64,000 nt of DNA from a virus (IMGVR_UViG_3300042544_002482:1-64000); one strand, 5' to 3'. Positions 18,950-32,576 are shown, counted from the first letter of the stretch. A program made the numbers and translations. Notes: generated by a model not told the origin, from the sequence alone.

Positions 18950-21900
18950 TTATCTCACAACTACAACCCTTCCTGATCTAGAAGATGAAAAAGTTATTGT
19001 AACGACAGATGTACTTGTTGTAACAATCGATGATGGCCAAAACATATTATCAGAACTATCATAAACAAATACCGCCACGTCTTTTGTTCCTAAACTATGT
19101 GTTACTGTTACTGATGAAACACTACTGAATGATGTTGAGTATGATGAGTTAGCAACAGTTTTTACAACACTACCTGCAGAATACATCGCACCGGCAACAC
19201 TAAATAAACCATCCGACGCTCTTAATTCTGCCTTAACTGTTGGCGTTGTTTGAGTTGCAGTACCCGATTCCCATGTCCATCCATATCCTGTTTCACCTTC
19301 GATAAATCTTCTTAATGCCCAATTGGTAACGTATGTTCCCGCTGGTGCGGTAATGTTAGCATTTGGACCACAACCCGTAGCTGCTGCGGGTGACATGTAA
19401 TCACACCATGATGAATAACTCGTAGAATACCATGATATACCCGTACCCGCACCACTATCTCTCTTCATATTAATACCCTTGTTAGAGAATAATAAGTTAC
19501 CCGTCATGGTTCCGCCGGCTAAAGGTAATGCATTATCTGCCTTTGTTCCTTGAGCCGCAGTTGCAAAATCTCCAGTTGCACTATTTGCTGCTGTTCCAAA
19601 TGTTCTATATGCTAAAACATCTGTACCAATAACTAAACCTAAGTTTGTTCTGGCACCTGCTGCGGTTGTTGCACCGGTTCCACCATTTGCAACAGCAACT
19701 GTTCCTGAAACGTTGGATACCGTCTGTGATCCGATATTACCTGAATCAATAATTGTTTTCCAAGCCTGTGACGTGTTAATTGCAGTTGCTGAAAAACTTC
19801 TATAATATAAATTTCCATTAGAACTAAATCCTAATTGACTATAATAATTGTCTGGATGCCTATTAACAGTAAGGATACTATTTGAATTATCAACCGCCGC
19901 AAATAAACCAGTTTGTGGATTAGTAATTGCGTATGAATATCCAACAGTTCCATTACCATATTGAGTTGTTAATCCTCCCGATGCAGTTATGACTCCAGCA
20001 CTTGCAGCAGAACCGTCAACACTAACACCTGTCAATGTTTGAGACGCACTTGCCCTACCTAATGATATTGATGTTGTACCAATGTTAAAAGATGAATTTG
20101 CTAAATATGCGTTTGCGATTGCGGTACCATTCCATACACCCGTTGTAATTGTACCAACAGTAGCTAAGTTGGCTAACGATGTTAAACTTGTATTTGAACT
20201 CGCAGTTATATTAGCTGCGGTTCCACTTGTACTCTGATTAAATGTTGGTACGGAAGCTGTTACTGTTGAACTATCAGCTAATGTAATTGTAACCGTTGAA
20301 CTTGAAAAACCTAATGTTGATATTCTTTTATTATATGATGTGTTCCAATTCGATGCCGAACTAATATATGTGTCACCAATCGCAGTACCATTCCATACAC
20401 CTGTTGTAACTGTACCCATGTAAACAGTTCCATCACCATAAACCCTAAATAAATTATCCGCACCCCAATGCCCAAGACTTACGTAGTTACTATTTGATGC
20501 GGAACTAGACCAGTTATAACCTAAGTAACCAGCATTTTTTGTGTTACCAGCTTGACCGACAACTAGAAGGTTTGTTTGACCCGCAACCATATTCGCAGCA
20601 AAATTCTCTTGCGAATGTATAAAAGAGGCAGCAGTAGATGTGTTAATTTTTAATGTTGCCGAACCACCTGTTCCCGTTGAACCTACAATTAATTGACCAG
20701 TCATGGTGTCACCAGCCTTTAGTACAAAGGTTGTTAATTGTGCGGAACCTGATATTGTACCTGATGGTAATGATGATATTACTTGTGCCGACCCACTAAT
20801 AACTCCTGATGGTAATTGTGCTGATCCAGACCATATGCCTGTACCAGATAAAACTTGTGATGAACCTGATACTGTGCCAGAAGGTAATGAAGAAATAACT
20901 TGTGCCGAGCCCGAAATAACTCCTGATGGTAATTGTGCTGAACCAGACCAAATACCTGTTCCCAATAATACTTGTGAAGAACCTGATATTACACCCTCCG
21001 TATTTAATTCTTTTTTAACCCCATCTAAAAAGTGTACTGAACCAGTATCCAATGTTAATGTTCTTGTTGCGGCAATTGTACCTCCACCACTTAAACCATT
21101 ACCAGCGGATACTGAAACGGATGTGTGGTCAACGTGTTGATTTGCATCATAGTTTGTAGTTGCATTATGATTAACCTGCACAGAACCACTAATAACACCA
21201 TCAGTATTTAATTTACTTTTAATTGTTGTGTTGATTGAACTAGTAAATGAATTTAATGAACCCGTACTTGTTTCAATATTATTGATTCTAGTAATTTGTG
21301 TGTTAAATTCTGTTTCTCTTACTAATCTTTGTTCTGATCCTAATTGACCAGCAACCCAATAATCATTTGTTGAATCCCATAATAAAGATCCCGATATTTG
21401 ACTTGGTGCTGTTGTGTCTTTAACTCTTAAACCAGCAAATGTCGCACCACTACCATTTAAATTAATTAAGTTATTGTCGACATCAAGTGTTGACGTGTTT
21501 ACGTTTGTTGTTGTACCTTTAACTAAAAAGTCGCCCCTAACTGTTAAGTTAGATCCCGTTAATTCTATTGCTGTCAATAACGATGATGTGAAACTGTTTA
21601 AACTGCTAGTAGATGTTTCTATTGCAGTTATATTAGGGCTAGTTATGTTTCCTGTAACTTTTAAAGTTCCGGTTACTTCAGTATTTGAATTTATAGAAAC
21701 CTTCGTACCCGTATCTGTGATATTACTATCACCAATGTGTTCGTCGTTGATAGACTTTGGTAATCTATTATTTGTTAAATGGATTTCATTACCTAAATCG
21801 TCAAAGGTCTCCGGACCCATTATTAATAATGACGATGTAACGGATGTTTGATTTTGGTGAACGAATATCCATTCGTTCTCAGTAGCGTCAAATAACAACG

Positions 21901-24406
21901 ACCCAGATACTTGTGGTGAAGAACCACTATCAATAACCGCCAATCCTCCAAATCTTAATGCTGGGTTCTGTGCGTTAACTGTGATAATATTATCAGCAAT
22001 GTTAACAACAGATGAGCTGATATGTTGAATCGAAGATGATCCAGCAACTATTAAGTTTTCTGAAATATATAATGAACCTGTTATTGTTTGATTACCTTGA
22101 TATATATTCGACCCTGTAGTTGCATAACTTCCGGTTTTACCTTCAATAGAATCTAATCTATTATTTTGTCCTAAATTTGTTGTTGCAACCGATGAAGATA
22201 AACTTCCAATACTTGAACTTAGTCCAGATGTTGTTGTTGCAACTGATGAACTTAAACTTGTTATTGTACTTGTTAATCCAGATGTTGTTGTAGCAATACT
22301 AGAACTTAATCCATTTGTTGTTGTTGCAACAGAAGAACTTAATCCATTGATTGCAGTACCAACACTAGAACTCAATTCACTAATGCTTGTAGATACGCTT
22401 GAACTAAATGTTGAATAACCAGTTGTTCCTGTAATTAAAACTTGAACACTACCAGATATTACTGATTCAGTATTAAGTTTATTTTTAATTGTTGTATCAA
22501 TAGAAGATGTGAACGAGTTTAATGAACCAGTTGAAGTTTCAATGCTCGTTAATCTACCATTTTGAGTATCGTTAGTTGTACTAAGTGATGATGATATGCT
22601 TCCAATACTAGAACTAAGCCCCGATGTTGTTGTGGCAACCGACGAACTTAAAGTATCAATTGATGCACTAATACTTGAACTTAATGATGCAACACTTGCA
22701 GATAAACTTGTTGATATACTTGAGCTAAATGTTGAATACCCCGTAGTTCCAGTAATCAGTACTTGGATACTACCAGATATCACAGACTCAGTGTTAATTT
22801 TATTTTTAATTGTTGTATCAATTGAACTAGTAAATGTATTTAAACTACTCGTTGCGGATTCAATACTACCTAATCTACCATTTTGGGTATCATTAGTAGA
22901 ACTAAATGAAGAAGAGACACTTCCAATACTTGAACTTAATCCAGATGTGGTCGTTGCCACTGAAGAACTTAAAGAAGTTATCGACGCACTAAGACCTGAC
23001 GTTACTCCTTCAACAGATGAACTTAATGAACCTATACTTGAACTTAAACCAGATGTTGTTGTGGCGACGCTAGAACTTAATGCTCCGATACTTGTAGAAA
23101 CACTAGAACTAAATGTTGAATATCCCGTTGTACCCGTGATTAAAACTTGAACACTTCCCGATATAACCGTTTCTGTGTTAAGTTTATTTTTAATTGTTGT
23201 ATCAATAGAACTAGTAAATGTGTTATATGATGATGTGGAATTTTCAATTGCAAATAATCTACCATCGTTTGATGATGTATACGATTGGAAAGTTGTTTCA
23301 TCTAACTTACCTGTACCAATCGCTTGACCATTTAATGATATTGACCCACTTATATTAGCGACACCAAAAAGATTAATTGAACCTGTAACATCTACAGAAC
23401 CAGTTACCACTAATGACCCACTTGTTCTTTGAATGTTTGTAAAGTTATTTGACCCCGTTGTGGCAAATGTTGTTGTATCTACGTTAATTAGTCCAATATT
23501 GGATTGACCATGTAGAAAATCCGAATATACCGTTATAGAATTACCCATCCCAACGTGATGGTCACACCAATAATAGAGTGTTGCGGCGGTGGCATCGGTA
23601 ACATCAACTTCAACATAAAAAGGGTCGAGATTGGTTGTTATTCCAGTGGTATATGTTGTACCTCCATTGTGTTCCCCATCGTTGGTTAAAGAGAAAAGTA
23701 ATGGATGTGTCTCATTGTTATTAAAATAAAATCTGTATTTGAAACCCCTAATGAAGGATAGTCTTGGGGATTTAACTCCGTTAACATAATATTTCCCACC
23801 ACCATCTGTTATGGTCATATCAACAATGTTGTTACTACCTAAATTTACTTTGTTAAGTTTTAACGCTCCCGTAATTTCGGTATTTGAGTTAACTCTTAAA
23901 CCATTTGCAGAAGAAATTGATGCTGTGGCACTTCCATCCGCAATCCGTGTTAAATTAAGACCCGTAACTCCACTTGCTGGTATGTTATATATATTTGAAC
24001 CATCTCCCTTTAAAGAACCTGATATTTGTCCTGTGACAGTCAAAGCCCCCGTAATTTCGGTATTTGTATTAACCCTTAAACCATCCGTACTTGAGATTGA
24101 TGCGGTTGACGAACCTTGACCTATTTGGGATAAGTTTAACCCTGTGATTCCACTTGATGGGATATTATATAAACCTGACCCCTCTCCTTTAAATGAACCA
24201 GTAAATGAACCTGTGGTATAAGAACCAGTAAAAGTATGAAAGCTAGAAGTTAGTGTGTATTTTGGGGCCTCGGATGCGCTTATAGCGTTATCGGTTGTTC
24301 CAGATATGGTACCACGAATGGTTCCAAGTACTGTTAAATCACCTGAAATTTCACCTGAACCCGATACTGATAGGGAGCCCGATATAAGTGGATCAAATAT
24401 ATTCAT
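18950..24406 (-). CDS. Giant tail-fibre protein with repeats and a cupredoxin-like domain
   Basis: An 1818-residue fibre. Residues 1-185 hold two copies of a GDGSNIYNIPASGVTGLNL-type module. Residues 205-297 look like a cupredoxin domain (H234 in ETHPLLF; C281, H284, M287 in WCDHHVGMG). Residues of about 390-760 are repetitive, with SGLSSSIGSLSSSV runs and three ISGSVQVLITGTTGYSTFSS units. The centre carries ISGSAQLPSG-type repeats also present in the other fibres. The C-terminal part has GISWYSTSYSSWCDYMS and ends SGRVVVVR. No enzyme site is seen. It is probably a trimeric fibre for host contact. Confidence 0.85.
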   Translation of the reverse strand: MNIFDPLISGSLSVSGSGEISGDLTVLGTIRGTISGTTDNAISASEAPKYTLTSSFHTFTGSYTTGSFTGSFKGEGSGLYNIPSSGITGLNLSQIGQGSSTASISSTDGLRVNTNTEITGALTVTGQISGSLKGDGSNIYNIPASGVTGLNLTRIADGSATASISSANGLRVNSNTEITGALKLNKVNLGSNNIVDMTITDGGGKYYVNGVKSPRLSFIRGFKYRFYFNNNETHPLLFSLTNDGEHNGGTTYTTGITTNLDPFYVEVDVTDATAATLYYWCDHHVGMGNSITVYSDFLHGQSNIGLINVDTTTFATTGSNNFTNIQRTSGSLVVTGSVDVTGSINLFGVANISGSISLNGQAIGTGKLDETTFQSYTSSNDGRLFAIENSTSSYNTFTSSIDTTIKNKLNTETVISGSVQVLITGTTGYSTFSSSVSTSIGALSSSVATTTSGLSSSIGSLSSSVEGVTSGLSASITSLSSSVATTTSGLSSSIGSVSSSFSSTNDTQNGRLGSIESATSSLNTFTSSIDTTIKNKINTESVISGSIQVLITGTTGYSTFSSSISTSLSASVASLSSSISASIDTLSSSVATTTSGLSSSIGSISSSLSTTNDTQNGRLTSIETSTGSLNSFTSSIDTTIKNKLNTESVISGSVQVLITGTTGYSTFSSSVSTSISELSSSVGTAINGLSSSVATTTNGLSSSIATTTSGLTSTITSLSSSVATTTSGLSSSIGSLSSSVATTNLGQNNRLDSIEGKTGSYATTGSNIYQGNQTITGSLYISENLIVAGSSSIQHISSSVVNIADNIITVNAQNPALRFGGLAVIDSGSSPQVSGSLLFDATENEWIFVHQNQTSVTSSLLIMGPETFDDLGNEIHLTNNRLPKSINDEHIGDSNITDTGTKVSINSNTEVTGTLKVTGNITSPNITAIETSTSSLNSFTSSLLTAIELTGSNLTVRGDFLVKGTTTNVNTSTLDVDNNLINLNGSGATFAGLRVKDTTAPSQISGSLLWDSTNDYWVAGQLGSEQRLVRETEFNTQITRINNIETSTGSLNSFTSSINTTIKSKLNTDGVISGSVQVNHNATTNYDANQHVDHTSVSVSAGNGLSGGGTIAATRTLTLDTGSVHFLDGVKKELNTEGVISGSSQVLLGTGIWSGSAQLPSGVISGSAQVISSLPSGTVSGSSQVLSGTGIWSGSAQLPSGVISGSAQVISSLPSGTISGSAQLTTFVLKAGDTMTGQLIVGSTGTGGSATLKINTSTAASFIHSQENFAANMVAGQTNLLVVGQAGNTKNAGYLGYNWSSSASNSNYVSLGHWGADNLFRVYGDGTVYMGTVTTGVWNGTAIGDTYISSASNWNTSYNKRISTLGFSSSTVTITLADSSTVTASVPTFNQSTSGTAANITASSNTSLTSLANLATVGTITTGVWNGTAIANAYLANSSFNIGTTSISLGRASASQTLTGVSVDGSAASAGVITASGGLTTQYGNGTVGYSYAITNPQTGLFAAVDNSNSILTVNRHPDNYYSQLGFSSNGNLYYRSFSATAINTSQAWKTIIDSGNIGSQTVSNVSGTVAVANGGTGATTAAGARTNLGLVIGTDVLAYRTFGTAANSATGDFATAAQGTKADNALPLAGGTMTGNLLFSNKGINMKRDSGAGTGISWYSTSYSSWCDYMSPAAATGCGPNANITAPAGTYVTNWALRRFIEGETGYGWTWESGTATQTTPTVKAELRASDGLFSVAGAMYSAGSVVKTVANSSYSTSFSSVSSVTVTHSLGTKDVAVFVYDSSDNMFWPSSIVTTSTSVVTITFSSSRSGRVVVVR
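22140..23230 (-). repeat. Tandem fibre repeats within the 1818-residue protein
   Basis: Three units encode nearly the same ISGSxQVLITGTTGY segment (about 22408-22472, 22725-22795 and 23113-23175). They are separated by runs of short SGLSSSIGSLSSSV repeats, with many synonymous base differences between units. Confidence 0.8.
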
Positions 24407-24937: not shown

Positions 24938-25525
24938 TTAAATAAGATTTGTTCTTTTATTAACATCTATTCTATATTTACCTCCTATTGGGAAATTTAT
25001 ATTTTCAACGCAGTCCAAATTTAAATAATCGACTATTTTTTGAAATCCGTTTTCATTGTACAATTCCTCGTATGATATTTTAAAATGGGTTGGGTCGGTT
25101 AAGTACCGTTCTCTAAAAGTTTTTTTTAATTCTCTAAAAAAATTAACTTCCGTTTCGTCTAATTTAAAGTCACCCTTAAGGTACACCCATCGATTGCTCC
25201 AGTTATTTGTTTTCTTAGCATTTACCCAAGACTCAATTTGTCCAGATTCATTTTTTCGATACAAACAAATTACCTTGTCCGAAATATTGGTAAACTCAGA
25301 ATAATCTTTATAATGATAAAAATCTTCTTTAATTAGTACATGTTCTGTTTTATATTCGTAATTTTTAGGTGAAATCTCGTTTTGATACCATTTATCATCT
25401 AATGAGTTTATGTGTTCTGGTGGGATATCTGGATTAAACAATATGGTAAAATTTTTATTATAATAAAACCAATTCGCTAAATTAGTTGATCCACTTCTAG
25501 GTTCACATAATAATAGTATAACCAT
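24938..25525 (-). CDS. Sulfotransferase-like protein
   Basis: A 195-residue P-loop sulfotransferase-type protein. EPRSGSTNLANWF (residues 8-20) matches the 5'-phosphosulfate-binding loop of PAPS-dependent sulfotransferases. ISDKVICLYRKNESGQIESW resembles the 3'-phosphate-binding R...S region. It is shorter than eukaryotic enzymes (about 280) but similar to compact bacterial and phage forms. It would transfer sulfate from PAPS to a hydroxyl of a glycan or small molecule. It is separated by three bases from a second sulfotransferase gene, and an APS kinase lies 3 kb upstream in the same direction. Confidence 0.75.
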   Translation of the reverse strand: MVILLLCEPRSGSTNLANWFYYNKNFTILFNPDIPPEHINSLDDKWYQNEISPKNYEYKTEHVLIKEDFYHYKDYSEFTNISDKVICLYRKNESGQIESWVNAKKTNNWSNRWVYLKGDFKLDETEVNFFRELKKTFRERYLTDPTHFKISYEELYNENGFQKIVDYLNLDCVENINFPIGGKYRIDVNKRTNLI

Positions 25526-25528
25526 ATT

Positions 25529-26254
25529 TTATATTAATGTATTTCGAGAGATAAAACGTTTTTCAAAGTTATCGAAAACCCATTTTTTTAACTTATCATC
25601 TTTTATGATGTTGTTTTTTATTGGGTGACTTTTATTTATTCTATCTACCTTAAAATCAATATCATATCTCTCACTAATAAATTTTTCAAATTTATCAATC
25701 TCAGTAATGTCAAATTCATAAGTGCATTTTTGGTTATCAACCCAATATGATTGAGATTGTAACAATATGAGTGGGTTAAAAGTGTGGTCTATATTTTTAG
25801 GTATATTTTTGGTGAATTTATATATTATCGATTTGTTAAACTCTCTCATTTTAATTATGTCATCATATTTCGTTAAATCGGTTTTCATTTCCCCAATCGA
25901 ATAAATTGAATCCACATAATCATTAGTAAAATTATTATATATAAAATCGTTGTTGATGTCCTCCCATTTTACAGATATTTTAATACCTGCAATTTCGTAC
26001 ATATTCCAAACATGTTGTAGTGCGCTTATCCATCTATCAAAATAATTCCTTTTAACAACTACGGTTTCCATTTTTCCAAAATTTACATATAGTTCAGATA
26101 ACTTAACGTGTATGTGTTTTGGGTACTCTCTAGCCGTTCCAAATCTATGGTGATTAATTATAAGTGGAGAATTAAGAATAGAACGTTCTATTGATGTACT
26201 GGCACATCTCGGAACTGATACCCATATTAAATCATTATTTATACATATAGACAT
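25529..26254 (-). CDS. Sulfotransferase family protein
   Basis: A 241-residue protein. WVSVPRCASTSIERSIL (residues 11-27) is the 5'-PSB loop of the Sulfotransfer_2/carbohydrate-sulfotransferase type, where the pattern is P-K/R-C/S-A/G-S/T-T-S. METVVVKRNYFDRWISALQH matches the 3'-PB element (R...S/W). It is probably a carbohydrate sulfotransferase acting on the glycan made by neighbouring transferases. It lies seven bases from the zinc-ribbon gene. It is diverged from its neighbour, so the pair is not a recent duplication and may act on different positions. Confidence 0.78.
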   Translation of the reverse strand: MSICINNDLIWVSVPRCASTSIERSILNSPLIINHHRFGTAREYPKHIHVKLSELYVNFGKMETVVVKRNYFDRWISALQHVWNMYEIAGIKISVKWEDINNDFIYNNFTNDYVDSIYSIGEMKTDLTKYDDIIKMREFNKSIIYKFTKNIPKNIDHTFNPLILLQSQSYWVDNQKCTYEFDITEIDKFEKFISERYDIDFKVDRINKSHPIKNNIIKDDKLKKWVFDNFEKRFISRNTLI

Positions 26255-26260
26255 AATAAA

Positions 26261-26542
26261 CTAAATAAATGTTTTATTAGTTTTTTCCACTATTTTGTAT
26301 TTTTTATCAATTTCTTCCCATTTCCCTAATGGGCACGGGTTATATTCTATACTAAAAATTTTTTTGGATATTGGGCAACCGCATTCACCACAAACTGTGG
26401 CAAGTTTTAATTTTTTAGTAATTACTTTTCTTGATGGACACACTTCACATATCTCACCTCTTTCAATTGATTTGTTTAATTGAGTTTGACTTGGGTTAAA
26501 GCTAATAATCCACGCATCGATTATCTCCTTAATATTAATCAT
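26261..26542 (-). CDS. Small zinc-ribbon protein
   Basis: A 93-residue protein with C32-x2-C35 (ICEVCPSR), C51-x2-C54-x-C56 (CGECGCP) and C70 in NPCPLGKW. This arrangement suits one or two zinc sites. Proteins of this pattern, ending in CPLGKW, recur in marine myophages without known function (established by recall only). It could be a nucleic-acid-binding or scaffold protein. It sits between a sulfotransferase gene and a possible 25-codon ORF. Confidence 0.7.
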   Translation of the reverse strand: MINIKEIIDAWIISFNPSQTQLNKSIERGEICEVCPSRKVITKKLKLATVCGECGCPISKKIFSIEYNPCPLGKWEEIDKKYKIVEKTNKTFI

Positions 26543-26547
26543 TTTTT

Positions 26548-26625
26548 TTAACTATTGGTTTGTACAATTAGATTCCCTATTTCGGTAACCATTGAGTCTG
26601 TAAGTTGTTTTTCTTGATTTGTCAT
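26548..26625 (-). CDS. Possible 25-residue peptide
   Basis: An ATG at 26625 opens a 25-codon frame ending TAA (26548-26550), encoding a polar peptide that begins MTNQEKQLTD and ends VQTNS. It fills the gap between the zinc-ribbon gene and the ATP-grasp/Hint gene almost exactly. AAGAAAAG lies upstream of the ATG. Support is limited to position and packing; it may be spurious. Confidence 0.3.
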   Translation of the reverse strand: MTNQEKQLTDSMVTEIGNLIVQTNS

Positions 26626-26652
26626 ATCTTTTCTTGATTAATAATTTATTTT

Positions 26653-28131
26653 TTAATTTATACAATACTCACAGACTGCAAATGGGCCACAACATTGTCC
26701 CTTGGGGCAACTACCTTGTCCGTAGTATGGTGTACCAAAACAACTAGCATAGTTATGTTCAACGGCGGCAAAATAAGACACGTATGTAGTTGTTGGGTTA
26801 TCAGTTGATGTTAAAAACAAATGTGCTCTTTCTACACCAATTGTCCATCCTGAAAATTCTTCATCCACAATATTGATTGATTGAACAATTTTTTCCACTA
26901 TTTGAACATTTTCATTTTCCGATGTATCTATAAGTAAAACAACATTTCCTGGAACAAAATCCATTATTTTAACGAATTTAATTTCATTATTTTCGTAAAT
27001 TAAATAACTTGAGTTAATGGTATCAAACCATTCTGTTTCATCGGTAAACGTTATTTTAGCAATTTCTACATTAATATCAATTCTTTTTTTGCTTATAATT
27101 TTGTTTGTACTATAAACTACACCATCCAAAAAAGTTTGCATATCAATTTGATAATTCGCTAAAACGTTTACCGCATCGATATTATCAGCATTAGGGATGT
27201 CTATAGTTCTAACAATATCCCCAATTTGTAAATCTAATCCACTTTTTGTTGAACCATCGGCCATAATAACATAATCGTCATCCAATAATTTTGGAAGGTT
27301 GATTTTAAAATCTGAAGTGTAATAAATATTTCTGTAAAGATTATCGATTTCAAACGTTTCATCACTATAAGTGACATTATTTGTTAATTTTTGAATTGCG
27401 ATGTCGGTATACCCCCCTATGTGAATAGATTCTAAATTTGGGGGGAATAACATACTTATTTTTCTAATCTTAGTTACCTTATTAGAGTATACCTTCGATT
27501 CGTTAAAATAATATGGCATTAAAAAATAATCTTCAGTAACGTTTTGTAAAACAAGGTCCAATTCTGTTTGATTTGTCACCTTATAAAACTTAGGATAAAC
27601 TTCCTTATTATAAGCGGGTTTTATAGCTTTTAAAATAAAATTAGGATGTATCCCATTGTCTTGAATGTTTGTTATATTATTTATTAGGACATCTTCATCA
27701 TTTAAATAAGCGAATTCCGAACCAAATTCACTATCCTTAATCAAATTTAGATATTCAATTTTATTAGCACAATAGGAACTATCCAATATAGCCGTGGTGT
27801 CAAATGAAGTCCTCACAATTAAATGTGTTTCACTATCTTCAATATATGGAATTGTTATCGAATTTGGGGCGGTAGCTATTGTTTCAAATTCCAAAGATAA
27901 ATTTGCGGCTACGTTCTGAATTTGTTCTTTAATTTTAACGTTAGCCCCCATATATGTTATCTTCGTAAACAAATTTGAGGTGACAAAATTCTGAAAATCC
28001 GTCATATCAAATACTTCATTATCGTTTTCTATTTTTTGTGTGGAATATCCGATATTCGTATTCATCTCAATAGGTCTTAAATTACCCCCTGAATCGTAGA
28101 CAAAATCCAAACCAACTATTACTGCTCTCAT
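26653..28131 (-). CDS. ATP-grasp-like / Hint-like protein with cysteine-rich tail
   Basis: A 492-residue protein of unusual composition. Residues 7-30 (GLDFVYDSGGNLRPIEMN) look like the Mg-ATP segment of ATP-grasp enzymes. Residues 160-240 hold conserved-looking K, P and YPKFYKV blocks. Residues 285-445 resemble a Hint (intein/hedgehog) fold: VIMADGSTKSGLDLQIGDIV at its start and GVERAHLFLTS at its end. The nucleophile Cys/Ser before the first strand and the final HN are not in the usual places, so splicing activity is doubtful. A short tail has six cysteines (C464 to C490). It may be a virion protein; function unknown. Confidence 0.55.
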   Translation of the reverse strand: MRAVIVGLDFVYDSGGNLRPIEMNTNIGYSTQKIENDNEVFDMTDFQNFVTSNLFTKITYMGANVKIKEQIQNVAANLSLEFETIATAPNSITIPYIEDSETHLIVRTSFDTTAILDSSYCANKIEYLNLIKDSEFGSEFAYLNDEDVLINNITNIQDNGIHPNFILKAIKPAYNKEVYPKFYKVTNQTELDLVLQNVTEDYFLMPYYFNESKVYSNKVTKIRKISMLFPPNLESIHIGGYTDIAIQKLTNNVTYSDETFEIDNLYRNIYYTSDFKINLPKLLDDDYVIMADGSTKSGLDLQIGDIVRTIDIPNADNIDAVNVLANYQIDMQTFLDGVVYSTNKIISKKRIDINVEIAKITFTDETEWFDTINSSYLIYENNEIKFVKIMDFVPGNVVLLIDTSENENVQIVEKIVQSINIVDEEFSGWTIGVERAHLFLTSTDNPTTTYVSYFAAVEHNYASCFGTPYYGQGSCPKGQCCGPFAVCEYCIN

Positions 28132-28158
28132 ATTATTTTCTTATTTTTATATAAATAT

Positions 28159-28374
28159 CTATTTTTTATCTTTTAATCCGTATTTAATCCATCTATACCA
28201 TATCCTCTCATGAAGATAATATTGAATGGGTTTATATACCAACTCAGCAACCCCAAACGCGGCTCCAACCTTAATTGAACCACTTATTAACCACATTAAA
28301 CCAAATCCAATTAAAGTACTTATAATTCGATATGAAATGGTTTTAGCAATGTGTCTCCTACGCTCTACAATCAT
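28159..28374 (-). CDS. DUF2061 membrane protein
   Basis: A 71-residue protein. HIAKTISYRIISTLIGFGLMW starts the conserved DUF2061 pattern, followed by a second hydrophobic segment (VGAAFGVAELVYKPIQYYL) and the closing HERIWYRWIKYG. Two transmembrane helices place it in the inner membrane. In bacteria DUF2061 genes are often beside sulfate-activation genes, and here it directly follows a nucleotidyltransferase and an APS kinase, which supports the sulfation module. The biochemical role of the family is not known. Confidence 0.85.
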   Translation of the reverse strand: MIVERRRHIAKTISYRIISTLIGFGLMWLISGSIKVGAAFGVAELVYKPIQYYLHERIWYRWIKYGLKDKK

Positions 28375-28754
28375 TATCCTTTAGTTTGGTCATATTTTAT
28401 AGTTCCATCTGGACTCATGTGTCCAGTTCTTATTGCCGTTCCACTTATTACCGCCACATCCGCTGGAGGTTCGTGATATATTACATCATAACCCACACCT
28501 CTACCATAGTTTATACTTTCAATGTCAGGAATAATCGATATTAATATTTTATCAAAGTTCTGACTAAAAAAGGGTTCATGTATTAACATCTGCAACACTT
28601 CCTGTGCGGTTTTTGGGTTATTTTCATCCACCTCAACATCTCTAATCGCCACCCATACATTCTTACCTTTTTCCAATTGTTGGTTGATTAACCATTCGTG
28701 ACCCTTGTGCCAATTCTGCCAACGGCCAACATACATTGCGTACTTTTTACTCAT
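28374..28754 (-). CDS. HxGH-type nucleotidyltransferase
   Basis: A 126-residue protein of the cytidylyl/adenylyltransferase superfamily. GRWQNWHKGHEWLI carries H16-x-x-H19, the HxGH catalytic motif, and ISGTAIR (103-109) is the second ATP-binding motif. The superfamily includes NMN adenylyltransferase, glycerol-3-phosphate cytidylyltransferase and ATP sulfurylase. The length fits the compact cytidylyltransferase/NadM forms. Its one-base overlap with the DUF2061 start and four-base overlap with the APS kinase gene suggest it may make APS from sulfate, replacing ATP sulfurylase. This is a context inference; NAD or CDP-sugar synthesis are alternatives. Confidence 0.75.
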   Translation of the reverse strand: MSKKYAMYVGRWQNWHKGHEWLINQQLEKGKNVWVAIRDVEVDENNPKTAQEVLQMLIHEPFFSQNFDKILISIIPDIESINYGRGVGYDVIYHEPPADVAVISGTAIRTGHMSPDGTIKYDQTKG

Positions 28755-29185
28755 AATGTTATAATATTTAATAATTTATTTGATGATTGTTCCACGGTTT
28801 CTGTGGTGGTATCAATATCTATAAAGTCTTCTGTTGGTGGTTCGTAATTAGATACGTGGAAATTTTCCCTACCTCTAATCTCACTAGTGTGTACATAAAC
28901 CTCTGTAACATCTGCTAGTTTTTTAAATGTGTCTCTTTGGTCCTTATATGGTGAAACCAATGACACTAAAACCGTGTACCCTTTCCTATGTAGGAAAAGT
29001 GCAATGTCTTGAGCCCTCTCAATATTCCTTCTTCTTCCTGCTTCGGAATAATCTTTATTTTGGAAAATGTCTCTTAAATCGTCACCATCAATATGTGCGG
29101 TAGATGTGGGTGAAAGAGTTTTCATCAATTCTAACGCAATAGTTGTTTTACCCGATCCGGGTTGACCCGTAAACCAATATATCAT
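28751..29185 (-). CDS. cysC: Adenylylsulfate (APS) kinase-like protein
   Basis: A 144-residue P-loop kinase. GQPGSGKTT (7-15) is Walker A; HIDGDDLRD (31-39) is the D-G-D APS-binding motif; GRRRNIERAQDIALFL is the R-x-x-N region; LVSPYKDQRD includes S78 at the site of the CysC phospho-serine. It is shorter than typical CysC (about 200) because the lid insert is reduced to a few residues. It would convert APS plus ATP to PAPS, the sulfate donor for the two sulfotransferases downstream. The gene starts after a 36-base A/T-rich gap following a glycosyltransferase gene. Confidence 0.83.
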   Translation of the reverse strand: MIYWFTGQPGSGKTTIALELMKTLSPTSTAHIDGDDLRDIFQNKDYSEAGRRRNIERAQDIALFLHRKGYTVLVSLVSPYKDQRDTFKKLADVTEVYVHTSEIRGRENFHVSNYEPPTEDFIDIDTTTETVEQSSNKLLNIITL

Positions 29186-29221: not shown

Positions 29222-30373
29222 TTAAATTACACTTTTATCATAAAATTGAAATCCTGTTATTTTTTCATACATTTTTTCTCCGGGTGATAAAAGTGGTAGA
29301 TTAATGTTATATTTTGGGTATATCTCTCTATAGTAACTATTCACCTTACGTAACCACTCAACCCCAAATCTGTGGGCGATTTGTCCAATAATTAAACATT
29401 GTATTATGGGTGACCATTTATGATGAGCTAAATGTAGTATACCACCAAAATCATGATTAAAATATTTTAACATATCCTCCTCATCTTTTATAGTGTATTT
29501 GTTCTTTTTTAGGTTAGACACACCACAACAATCACAGATAAATTCTTCATCGTAGTGGTAATTGTTTTGAAACATTAATGGGAATTCAAAATCGTTCTCT
29601 AAGTACGTCCCATCTCTTCGTTCCTGTAATATTTGAAAGAACCATTTATTAGCTAAAAAACACTCTCCAGATGTGATTGAATTTTTATATTTATCACTCA
29701 ATTCCATTAAGTTTAAATGTATCATTAATTGTTCAATGTAACAAGCTCCATATCCTTTATCATATGAGTCTATCTTTTCTTTATTTTCTTCGTAGTGACT
29801 TAATGATAATTGTGTTGCCTTTTTGAATAATTCGAAATCTTTTACATATATTAAATTCATATTTGGGATGTCTCCAACTTTAAAGTTTTTAATTTTTTCT
29901 TCCGAATGAAATTTTTTCATATCATTAAACGGAACCCCATATGCATTCATTGCACTAGTAAAATAATCATTAAATCCTTTTGGTGTTGTGTTACGTCCTA
30001 AATCTGGAAAATCTCTATGTGCGAACATAACGTCTTGTTCTAATGGAAACGTTATTTTTTTATTAATAATAGTGTCGGTATCAATGTGAATAAAAGGTTC
30101 ATTCATCGATTCGAACACCTTCATTTTCACAACACTAAACGTAGTTGGGTTTAATCCATCTAACACATCTATATCTATTTCATCATATGGAATACCAATT
30201 TTAACAATTTGTTCCATAACAAACTCATTTGTGTATAATTTTATATTCCCTTGATTTCTTTTAATCATTAACGCGCTAAGTAATTGTACATATAAAACGT
30301 CTTTCCATATGACGTGTGTATATTTTTTATCGACATTAAAGTTATTTGGAATATAGCTATGTATAAATTTCAT
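29222..30373 (-). CDS. Glycosyltransferase-like protein (DUF6734/GT-A type)
   Basis: A 383-residue protein. An N-terminal nucleotide-fold half leads to FIHIDTDTIINK, a D-x-D donor-sugar site. A second region contains YIEQLMIHLNL and a cysteine knot-like FICDCCGVSN near residue 275, then HLAHHKW, a histidine-rich segment near residue 320 also common in this phage family. It resembles the next gene in layout. Transfer of a sugar in the modification island is likely. It shares one base with the next gene upstream. Confidence 0.68.
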   Translation of the reverse strand: MKFIHSYIPNNFNVDKKYTHVIWKDVLYVQLLSALMIKRNQGNIKLYTNEFVMEQIVKIGIPYDEIDIDVLDGLNPTTFSVVKMKVFESMNEPFIHIDTDTIINKKITFPLEQDVMFAHRDFPDLGRNTTPKGFNDYFTSAMNAYGVPFNDMKKFHSEEKIKNFKVGDIPNMNLIYVKDFELFKKATQLSLSHYEENKEKIDSYDKGYGACYIEQLMIHLNLMELSDKYKNSITSGECFLANKWFFQILQERRDGTYLENDFEFPLMFQNNYHYDEEFICDCCGVSNLKKNKYTIKDEEDMLKYFNHDFGGILHLAHHKWSPIIQCLIIGQIAHRFGVEWLRKVNSYYREIYPKYNINLPLLSPGEKMYEKITGFQFYDKSVI

Positions 30374-31314
30374 TAAATTAACTTTTTATTTACTTTATTA
30401 ATTTCATTTTTGTATTCCTCAATTTTCATATTTCTATATTCTTCATTTAATTTTAATGCGTGTTTATTAAACCACACGTGTTCGTAATTCAAATTTTCAG
30501 TGTGATCAACTCTGTTTGGGTCCTTTAACCAAAATAAAGCCTTTCCTGGTGCGGGATTATCACCAATAGAATGTGATTCTGAATATGACATATAAATCTT
30601 ATTCTCAATACTCTCCACTTTCATATTCAATTTTCTAATCCCGTAACCAAGTATCCCTTGATCAGCAATTAACCATAACCACTCAGGTATGTATTCATAT
30701 TCTCTAGTGATTATATCTAAATGTCTTTTTAGGTAATCATCTCTTAATGTCTCATTGTTCATGAAAACAAATGATGTATTTGGTATAAACATATTTTGAT
30801 TGAAGTCTTCAATACCACCGATACGGTTTACTTGATTTTCAAAAACAAAAAATTCTCCCCTTTGAATTTCCCATTGGGTGTGTACTAAATCGTAATTCCA
30901 AACCCAATCAGGTAATTTACTCCTTACAATAAAATCTAAATCTAAAAATAGATATGGTGTGGGTTCTTTACCAATTACAATTGATTTACCCGTTGTCCAA
31001 AATCTACCTGGTTCAATGTATGAGTATTCTTTATTGAATGTCTCTAAAACATCCGTATCCACCTCATCCCATAACCCCAACATTCCTTTTTTCTTATAAA
31101 ATTCATACCCAATATTATCAGTATACAATTTTGTTACCCCAACATACTTTTTCGCGTTTCTTACTGCTAATTCCTGTATAACTAATTCATAATCAACAAT
31201 ATCATATTCATCGTCGGGTAAATCAAACATCTTCATTCTATTATACCCTTGAGCATCATTCTTGTGAAAAAATGGCGCGGTCCAATTAACAAAGATTACT
31301 TTTAAATTATTCAT
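30373..31314 (-). CDS. Glycosyltransferase-like protein (DUF6734/GT-A type)
   Basis: A 313-residue protein with LFLDLDFIVRSK as the D-x-D site, preceded by TTGKSIVIGKEPTPY, and FNQNMFIPNTSFVFMNN near residue 180. LWLIADQGILGYGI carries an acidic residue suitable as a catalytic base region, and HVWFNKHALKL closes the domain. The layout parallels the gene at 29222-30373 without close sequence identity. The start overlaps the next gene upstream by eight bases. A GT-A sugar transferase is likely; donor unknown. Confidence 0.66.
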   Translation of the reverse strand: MNNLKVIFVNWTAPFFHKNDAQGYNRMKMFDLPDDEYDIVDYELVIQELAVRNAKKYVGVTKLYTDNIGYEFYKKKGMLGLWDEVDTDVLETFNKEYSYIEPGRFWTTGKSIVIGKEPTPYLFLDLDFIVRSKLPDWVWNYDLVHTQWEIQRGEFFVFENQVNRIGGIEDFNQNMFIPNTSFVFMNNETLRDDYLKRHLDIITREYEYIPEWLWLIADQGILGYGIRKLNMKVESIENKIYMSYSESHSIGDNPAPGKALFWLKDPNRVDHTENLNYEHVWFNKHALKLNEEYRNMKIEEYKNEINKVNKKLI

Positions 31315-32002
31315 ATATAAAATATAAGTCTTGTTTTAAATCATTGGTTTTATATAAAGGTACCCCCGAATTTAAAATCGATATACCTATTATTAATCCC
31401 TCACCTCTACCTAATGGTTTGTTATTAAATTTAACATCATTATTGTTTATTTCTTTTTTTAAACAATTAAAAATTTTAAAAAAGTCATTCAACTTTTCAT
31501 CTCTACTAATAACGAAAAATCTTTCACCAATTAATTTAGCATCGCTAATTTTTAAATTGTTTTTTTTACAATGATTTTCAATATGATCAAAATAATCATC
31601 TTTAATGATGTTCTTAAATTCTTGATATGTTAAAGGGGTTTCTAACCAATCTTCAGTATAATAAATCCCGGGGTTAAATTTTGCTTCACAGAAGTTATCA
31701 ATATTTAATGTGATATCAGAATCAACATATAATATCGTCTCATATTTTTTTAAAGCAATTTCACAAATCAATAATTTATCCGTATAAGATTTGTCTACTT
31801 CAGTATACGGGACAATAATAACATTTAAGTCCTTAAACTCTTCTGGACTGTCAGTTAAAACAAGAATATCTACTGGGTAAGATTTATAGGTCTTAATATT
31901 TTTAATCGCCAAATCAATATAATAATTGTCTTCTTCTTTTTCTATTATACCGTTTTTAACTAATGGAGATTTAAATACAAATAAACAAATAGCTTTATTC
32001 AT
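31307..32002 (-). CDS. Glycosyltransferase-like protein (GT8/GT77-like)
   Basis: About 231 residues from ATG 32002; a TTG two codons upstream is less likely and the ATG gives an eight-base overlap with the upstream gene. YSVDILVLTD-type strands lead to ETILYVDSDITLNID, the D-x-D site, near residue 92. FVISRDEKLNDFFKIF and a final glycine-rich RGEGLIIGISI segment follow, a pattern of GT8/GT77-like retaining transferases. It resembles the protein at 49130-49864 in the GEG-I-I/S-I ending. Substrate not readable. Confidence 0.68.
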   Translation of the reverse strand: MNKAICLFVFKSPLVKNGIIEKEEDNYYIDLAIKNIKTYKSYPVDILVLTDSPEEFKDLNVIIVPYTEVDKSYTDKLLICEIALKKYETILYVDSDITLNIDNFCEAKFNPGIYYTEDWLETPLTYQEFKNIIKDDYFDHIENHCKKNNLKISDAKLIGERFFVISRDEKLNDFFKIFNCLKKEINNNDVKFNNKPLGRGEGLIIGISILNSGVPLYKTNDLKQDLYFIYE

Positions 32003-32576
32003 AATCAATTTTATGGTTTTGTATTAATGTTAAGCTTTGCCCAACCAAAACATCTCTTCGCCCATCTGTAACTGGTTTTATAAAATGTGGGTGTGTCAAT
32101 CCACCTGGAAAGATAATAATATCACCCAATTCTAAATTATAAGAAATGTCTTGTCTTGGAAAACAAAGTTCACCACCTTTAAAATTATTATTAAGTAAGC
32201 CAACAAATGTTAAACCACTAAAATCCCAATGAACATTCTTTTCTGAAAAAATTGTATTGTCTCTATAATAATGTAATAAAAACATATCCCTCCATTTTGT
32301 TTTAACAAAATCTTTTATATTTTTTATTGTTTCGTGAGACGCGTTTAATCCAATACCATTTTCAATATCATAAATTTTTAGATAGTCGTCTAAAAGCGGA
32401 TATTCAATATTATTGAACCAAAAATCATTAATTTTATAAAATAAACTCATATCAATTTTATCTACATCAATCCTATCAATACCACCAATATTATCACGAA
32501 CTAATAATAATTCATCAATAATAGATTTTGGTATTATAGATTTAAAAACGAAAATATCTGAATCTATTTTTATCAT
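31995..32576 (-). CDS. 2-oxoglutarate/Fe(II)-dependent oxygenase
   Basis: A 193-residue double-stranded beta-helix protein. NVHWDFSG gives the H116-x-D118 iron ligands; THPHFIKPVTDGRR gives the distal histidine (H162 or H164) and the arginine that binds 2-oxoglutarate. FKGGELCFPRQD and GDIIIFPGG are typical of the prolyl-4-hydroxylase-like group. It hydroxylates a C-H bond, possibly in a peptide, sugar or nucleotide. It overlaps the preceding glycosyltransferase by eight bases and abuts a second oxygenase gene. Confidence 0.82.
   Translation of the reverse strand: MIKIDSDIFVFKSIIPKSIIDELLLVRDNIGGIDRIDVDKIDMSLFYKINDFWFNNIEYPLLDDYLKIYDIENGIGLNASHETIKNIKDFVKTKWRDMFLLHYYRDNTIFSEKNVHWDFSGLTFVGLLNNNFKGGELCFPRQDISYNLELGDIIIFPGGLTHPHFIKPVTDGRRDVLVGQSLTLIQNHKIDYE

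Follow-up and report, generated by a model that had tools for sequence, protein, structure and literature searches.

A phage gene module predicted to make PAPS for sulfation, with a minimal NadM-like nucleotidyltransferase as candidate ATP sulfurylase

The virus sequence IMGVR_UViG_3300042544_002482:1-64000 (64,000 nucleotides, hereafter the window, part of a 93,592-base virus record in IMG/VR) carries a group of genes that very probably forms a phage module for making 3'-phosphoadenosine 5'-phosphosulfate (PAPS) and for sulfation. The group comprises an APS kinase-like gene (APSK; APS, adenosine 5'-phosphosulfate), a minimal HxGH nucleotidyltransferase (NT), a small membrane protein of the DUF2061 family and two sulfotransferase-like genes, ST1 and ST2 (Table 1). 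An earlier note on the same DNA had described these five genes, and all were found where it placed them, on the minus strand. APSK, NT and DUF2061 indeed overlap as a trio, by 4 nt (NT/APSK) and 1 nt (DUF2061/NT). The sulfotransferases lie downstream on the same strand as the note had claimed, with the correction that a zinc-ribbon gene and a gene for a 492-aa protein intervene after the trio. At the level of sequence, the families of the kinase and the sulfotransferases, the identity of DUF2061 and the linkage of these genes are established. As a whole, the locus is probably best explained as a PAPS-making and sulfation module with NT in the slot of the ATP sulfurylase.

Scans of IMG/VR with NT returned at least 361 relatives and, in addition, a second, diverged set. 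Counts were based on 51 NT loci that were non-redundant at 95% NT identity and were flanked by 5 kb or more in both directions. Of these loci, 45 had APSK, 47 had DUF2061 and 40 had a sulfotransferase; 33 loci contained all three. The association was also found in the reverse direction, as 42 non-redundant loci picked by the kinase included 39 with NT, 36 with DUF2061 and 34 with a sulfotransferase. The trio, which the earlier note had proposed to look for in other phages, was thus found in scores of divergent phages, and its recurrence there places it far beyond chance. Several of the genes are moreover fused. APSK-NT fusions were found in L108 and L116-L118 (handles of individual loci; in L116 the arrangement is sulfotransferase, APSK-NT fusion, DUF2061), and the opposite order, NT-APSK, in L127. 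In L097 a DUF2061-APSK fusion is accompanied by a sulfotransferase and NT, and DUF2061 is probably fused to APS kinase in L164 as well, while in L114 DUF2061, APSK, sulfotransferase and NT are consecutive with overlapping ends. A kinase-NT fusion also occurs in cultured Stenotrophomonas and Xanthomonas phages as the 'kinase' phrog_10255, which holds both domains in one protein; its kinase is more divergent, and no DUF2061 or annotated sulfotransferase was found in the stretches examined around it.

Other arrangements were seen in individual loci. NT-DUF2061 pairs without APS kinase stand in a different gene setting in L027, L037, L053, L060, L068 and L078, with neighbours read by eye as UV-endonuclease-like and peptide-deformylase-like. 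Kinase-NT fusions of Stenotrophomonas phages lie in L082 (5587-6327) and L087 (5998-6729), one of them beside a NADAR-domain gene and a DNA methyltransferase. The DUF2061-APS kinase fusion of L097 (5984-7156) seems to run on into a HAD-like domain (DFDGVIHDYS). Around the phage APS kinases of L296, L297 and L298, the stretch examined contained neither NT nor DUF2061 nor a recognised sulfotransferase, and these kinases could be true assimilation genes. In L084 the trio is located on a phage-like contig that binning had assigned to a Chitinophagaceae metagenome-assembled genome, a hint of Bacteroidota hosts.

Searched singly, ST1 and ST2 gave no Pfam match. The profile of the ST2 family (A3) matched heparan sulfate 2-O-sulfotransferase (E = 6e-5), and a member of this family matched PF03567 (1.1e-5). 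The profile of the ST1 family (A2) matched the NodH and CurM sulfotransferases weakly (E = 0.02-0.03), with nothing else ranked higher, and relatives of ST1 matched PF13469 and PF00685. A PAPS-binding loop and an R..S motif were seen in the sulfotransferase families in alignments and profile matches, and the family profiles extend to sulfotransferases of solved structure. Sulfotransferases recognisable at Pfam level were present in 15 of 41 large records; 14 of 20 such genes lay within 3 kb of NT, compared to 0.9 expected at random placement, some of the 41 records being near-duplicates. As a lineage control, a ClpP-like gene served to select 34 records from the lineage of the window, after a structural protein tried as marker had yielded only two relatives. 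ST1/ST2 families were present in all 7 records carrying NT and in 1 of the 27 without it (hypergeometric, ~1.5e-6), a control that is not fully independent because the sulfotransferase profiles derive from NT loci and 4 of the 7 records were already in the set. The three newly found NT-carrying records agree, with ST1/ST2 families present.

The window APSK scored 69.7 bits against PF01583 (cut-off 21.1) and has an intact P-loop (GQPGSGKT) as well as DGDDLR, GRRRNIERA and SPY..R motifs. Aligned with full-length phage kinases and NodQ-type CysNC, it lacks the RDPKGLYKKARAGEI..F lid segment; the arginine of DGDxxR and the R..N of DRxEN, which we take to have a role in APS binding, are retained. 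The kinases of L089, L094, L104, L112, L120 and L123 carry the lid together with every APS kinase motif, and NTs that are 83% identical to each other pair with either the short-lid or the full APS kinase, which suggests that both forms do the same job. The lid-less form is predicted to be active and to make PAPS.

DUF2061 of the window is well recognised by PF09834 (61.6 bits; cut-off 23.1). The statement of the earlier note that DUF2061 neighbours sulfate activation genes in bacteria holds: DUF2061 was found in 22 of 198 Bacteroidota genomes, and CysD or CysNC lay within about 1.5 kb of it in 13 of 21 (the phage contig left out), the remaining 8 having neither in wider stretches. On plasmid p_1 of Mesorhizobium huakuii (NZ_CP050299), DUF2061 is part of the run nodB-nodC-nodI-permease-sulfotransferase-DUF2061-cysD-cysN, with an APS kinase domain in cysN. 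Other DUF2061 genes of plasmids sit away from sulfate genes, so the link to sulfate is frequent but not universal. The NodP-NodQ-NodH system of the M. huakuii plasmid, which adjoins the nodulation-factor genes, resembles the phage module in that a single run of genes provides a sulfotransferase, DUF2061, the activation of sulfate and an APS kinase. It differs in that the rhizobial ATP sulfurylase consists of CysD and a CysN domain, whereas the corresponding slot in the phage is occupied by a 126-aa NadM-like protein. Likewise, the bifunctional PAPS synthetase PAPSS (Sat-CysC fusions) couples a nucleotidyltransferase to APS kinase, as do the single polypeptides of L116 and L127, but its sulfurylase part belongs to PF01747, and the phage NT is under the cut-off of that family.

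In the 41 large records, no ATP sulfurylase passed the PF01747 cut-off and no PF01507 protein (CysD/CysH; PAPS reductase) was found. Given the lack of PF01507, sulfate assimilation was rejected as the purpose of the module. As these phages encode a user of APS and users of PAPS but no known maker of APS, NT is the only candidate for an APS maker encoded there. Co-occurrence, fusions, the missing canonical enzymes and the rhizobial parallel together make the production of PAPS for sulfation the most likely role of the module. The proposal of the earlier note that the phage makes PAPS and sulfates with it is thus supported, by co-occurrence in both directions, fusions, sulfotransferase adjacency and the same parallel. 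In the mechanism that we propose, NT would form APS from ATP and sulfate with release of pyrophosphate, a reaction for which other systems use the Sat/Met3 or CysDN ATP sulfurylase. APSK, assigned to its family by profile, would phosphorylate APS at the 3' position to PAPS, and the sulfotransferases, assigned by profile and motif, would use PAPS to sulfate a glycan or protein of the virion or of the host surface. DUF2061 may support the first step, perhaps at the membrane. The sulfate acceptor is probably a glycan, since glycosyltransferase-like and sugar genes surround the module.

The sequence motifs of the window NT are GRWQNWHKGH, R38, PDIESINYGRGVGY and ISGTAIR. It falls under the PF01467 cut-off, and the profile comparison that the earlier note had suggested placed it nearest to archaeal-type NadM, a nicotinamide mononucleotide (NMN) adenylyltransferase, and not to ATP sulfurylase (PF01747). 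NadM profiles matched all 51 aligned NT members (best 2.5e-17), and hhalign gave 99.3% for NT against NadM but nothing useful against ATP sulfurylase, of which only the SGTxxR end aligned. The window NT has no PF01747 match, and the ATP sulfurylase motifs QxRNPxHxxH and GRDHAG are not in register with its own GRWQNWHKGH and NYGRGVGY. It also misses the equivalog cut-off of TIGR01527 (NadM; 26 vs 181.2 bits). The catalytic motifs GRxQxxHxGH and SGTxxR and the core fold are common to NT and NadM (R11 in 50 of 51 members; Q13, H16, H19 and R109 in all 51), and R11, H19 and R109 align with R11, H19 and R136, which were mutated in solved archaeal NMN adenylyltransferase structures. Invariant across the 51 NTs are G10, Q13, H16, G18, H19, R38, P47, I78, G84, R85, G88, T106 and R109, of which two are new, R85 and, where strand 2 ends, R38, the latter being specific to NT compared to NadM; the arginine of the NadM GER motif is mostly replaced.

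An AlphaFold model of NT based on the 51-sequence alignment reached a pLDDT of 92.2 and a pTM of 0.82, superseding a first model from 14 close relatives (pLDDT 72.7), and Foldseek placed NadM at the top (6e-4), followed by PPAT and others. The later strand-helix-strand segment of NadM is missing in the model, in which three strands are followed by a loop containing the conserved PDIESxNYGRGVGY, found only in NT. Consistently, long NadM stretches past strand 3 remained unmatched in the alignment, and a complete second domain half was not found. NT thus branches off from the NadM fold, with a short loop where NadM has its later acceptor-side segment. Judged from their strand-end positions in this fold, R38 and R85 may lie at the acceptor site, and an acceptor as small as sulfate would fit the cut-down domain. 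L086 turned out to be an ordinary archaeal NadM and was rejected.

That NT is a minimal ATP sulfurylase, as the earlier note had put forward, is thus favoured by genomic context and opposed by a sequence and fold that are NadM-like, not PF01747-like. We consider the chance that it serves as the ATP sulfurylase of the module to be slightly better than even. It has about an even chance of representing a third type of ATP sulfurylase that has no relation to CysDN, does not belong to the Sat/Met3 family, consists of a cut-down NadM fold of some 126 residues and has spread among large aquatic phages within a sulfation module.

Several observations weigh against this interpretation. Both by sequence and by fold, NT is nearer to NMN adenylyltransferase than to ATP sulfurylase, and PF01747 was matched, weakly, by only 8 of the 51 members (best 4.2e-6). 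In 6 of the 51 loci no APS kinase is within reach of NT. The kinase of the window is devoid of the APS-binding substrate lid, and its TIGR00455 score of 73.9 bits is below the equivalog cut-off of 138.7. The sulfotransferase profiles were built from NT-adjacent loci, which favours the co-occurrence count. APS could also come from an ATP sulfurylase of the host, in which case NT would have another job. The earlier note had named two outcomes that would speak against its proposal, alignment of NT with another family and lack of sulfotransferases in the relatives; the former was found, while the relatives clearly do have sulfotransferases. An unlikely alternative builds on such a supply of APS by the host's own ATP sulfurylase: the contribution of the phage would be APS kinase and sulfotransferases, and NT would adenylylate or cytidylylate a small acceptor, e.g. 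a phosphorylated sugar or a phosphonate, in the same glycan pathway. The position of NT among sugar and glycosyltransferase-like genes, its dissimilarity to ATP sulfurylase and the kinase-less NT-DUF2061 pairs are all consistent with such a role. It accounts less well for the NT-APS kinase fusions in both orders, for the link to DUF2061, which often stands with ATP sulfurylase in bacteria, and for a sulfotransferase association that persists across divergent phages.

Improbable in our view is that NT acts as a reduced NMN adenylyltransferase for the supply of nicotinamide adenine dinucleotide (NAD) or for NAD-based counter-defence, the kinase neighbourhood being secondary. The NadM matches of all 51 NTs and the NADAR-domain gene next to a kinase-NT fusion in a Stenotrophomonas phage point in this direction, but the segment past strand 3 is gone, the GER arginine has mostly been exchanged, R38 and R85 have become invariant, and the consistent partners of NT are sulfate-activation genes and not NAD genes. 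Very improbable is a scheme in which the short-lid kinase acts on something other than APS and, together with NT, produces another 3'-phosphorylated nucleotide donor, for which the cytidine diphosphoramidate kinase of Campylobacter capsule synthesis may serve as a model. It would explain the missing lid and the low equivalog score of the window kinase. However, near-identical NTs pair with kinases bearing every APS kinase motif including the lid, the short form has kept the DGDxxR arginine and the R..N of DRxEN, and the sulfotransferases would need PAPS.

Homologues of the 492-aa protein were found near NT in 19 of the 51 loci and those of the zinc-ribbon protein in 16. The 492-aa protein has an ATP-grasp-like start, a middle part read by eye as Hint-like and a Cys-rich end. 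Upstream of APSK, the protein encoded at 29222-30373 matches DUF6734 (Pfam), and a homologue of that at 30373-31314 also adjoins the trio in L017, L021 and L043; the glycosyltransferase-like genes of this region are a possible source of the sulfate acceptor. On the other side, positions 18950-24406 (minus strand) encode a tail-fibre-like protein of 1818 aa that is repetitive and rich in Ser/Thr; several long open frames run antisense to it.

Table 1. Genes of the module and its surroundings in the window.
Feature	Position	Strand	Length	Basis or remark
APS kinase-like gene (APSK), short-lid 'mini' form	28751-29185	minus	144 aa	PF01583, TIGR00455, alignment
Minimal HxGH nucleotidyltransferase (NT)	28374-28754	minus	126 aa	NadM-like profiles, AlphaFold, Foldseek, invariants over 51 relatives
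DUF2061 small membrane protein	28159-28374	minus	71 aa	PF09834; bacterial CysD/CysNC neighbours; APS kinase fusion
Sulfotransferase-like ST2	25529-26254	minus	241 aa	5' PRCASTS loop, 3' RN...RW.S motif; family profile A3
Sulfotransferase-like ST1	24938-25525	minus	195 aa	PRSGSTN loop; family profile A2
492-aa protein	26653-28131	minus	492 aa	Between trio and sulfotransferases
Zinc-ribbon protein	26261-26542	minus		Between trio and sulfotransferases
Genes read by eye as glycosyltransferase-like, just upstream of APSK	29222-32008	minus		Module membership uncertain

In lakes and in the deep sea, phages commonly carry APS kinase genes, which are currently read as aiding sulfate reduction by the host. 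A freshwater survey reported 62 cysC and 167 cysH phage genes, larger genomes for cysC phages and, in one lake, phage cysC transcripts that at times exceeded the bacterial ones (PMC10914622); in a trench study, the modelled stretches of viral CysC comprised 109-135 residues (PMC9529941); and phage cysC has been listed, not validated, as an assimilatory sulfate reduction gene (PMC12713726). These reports assign the APS kinase genes of aquatic phages to assimilation, and a term search of PMC10914622 and PMC9529941 found no sulfotransferase or nucleotidyltransferase; our literature searches, which covered open-licence papers, found no published account of the trio. The published cysC genes are probably of the same kind as the kinase of the module. 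Because the kinases studied here sit with sulfotransferases and not with a PAPS reductase, the likely product is a sulfated glycan or protein and not cysteine, and the published assimilatory role looks wrong for these phages. The sulfation reading alters what phage APS kinase genes tell about sulfur cycling. If NT makes APS, it would be a very small new ATP sulfurylase, which one enzyme assay could check. The module suggests that phages use sulfation to modify the virion or the host surface.
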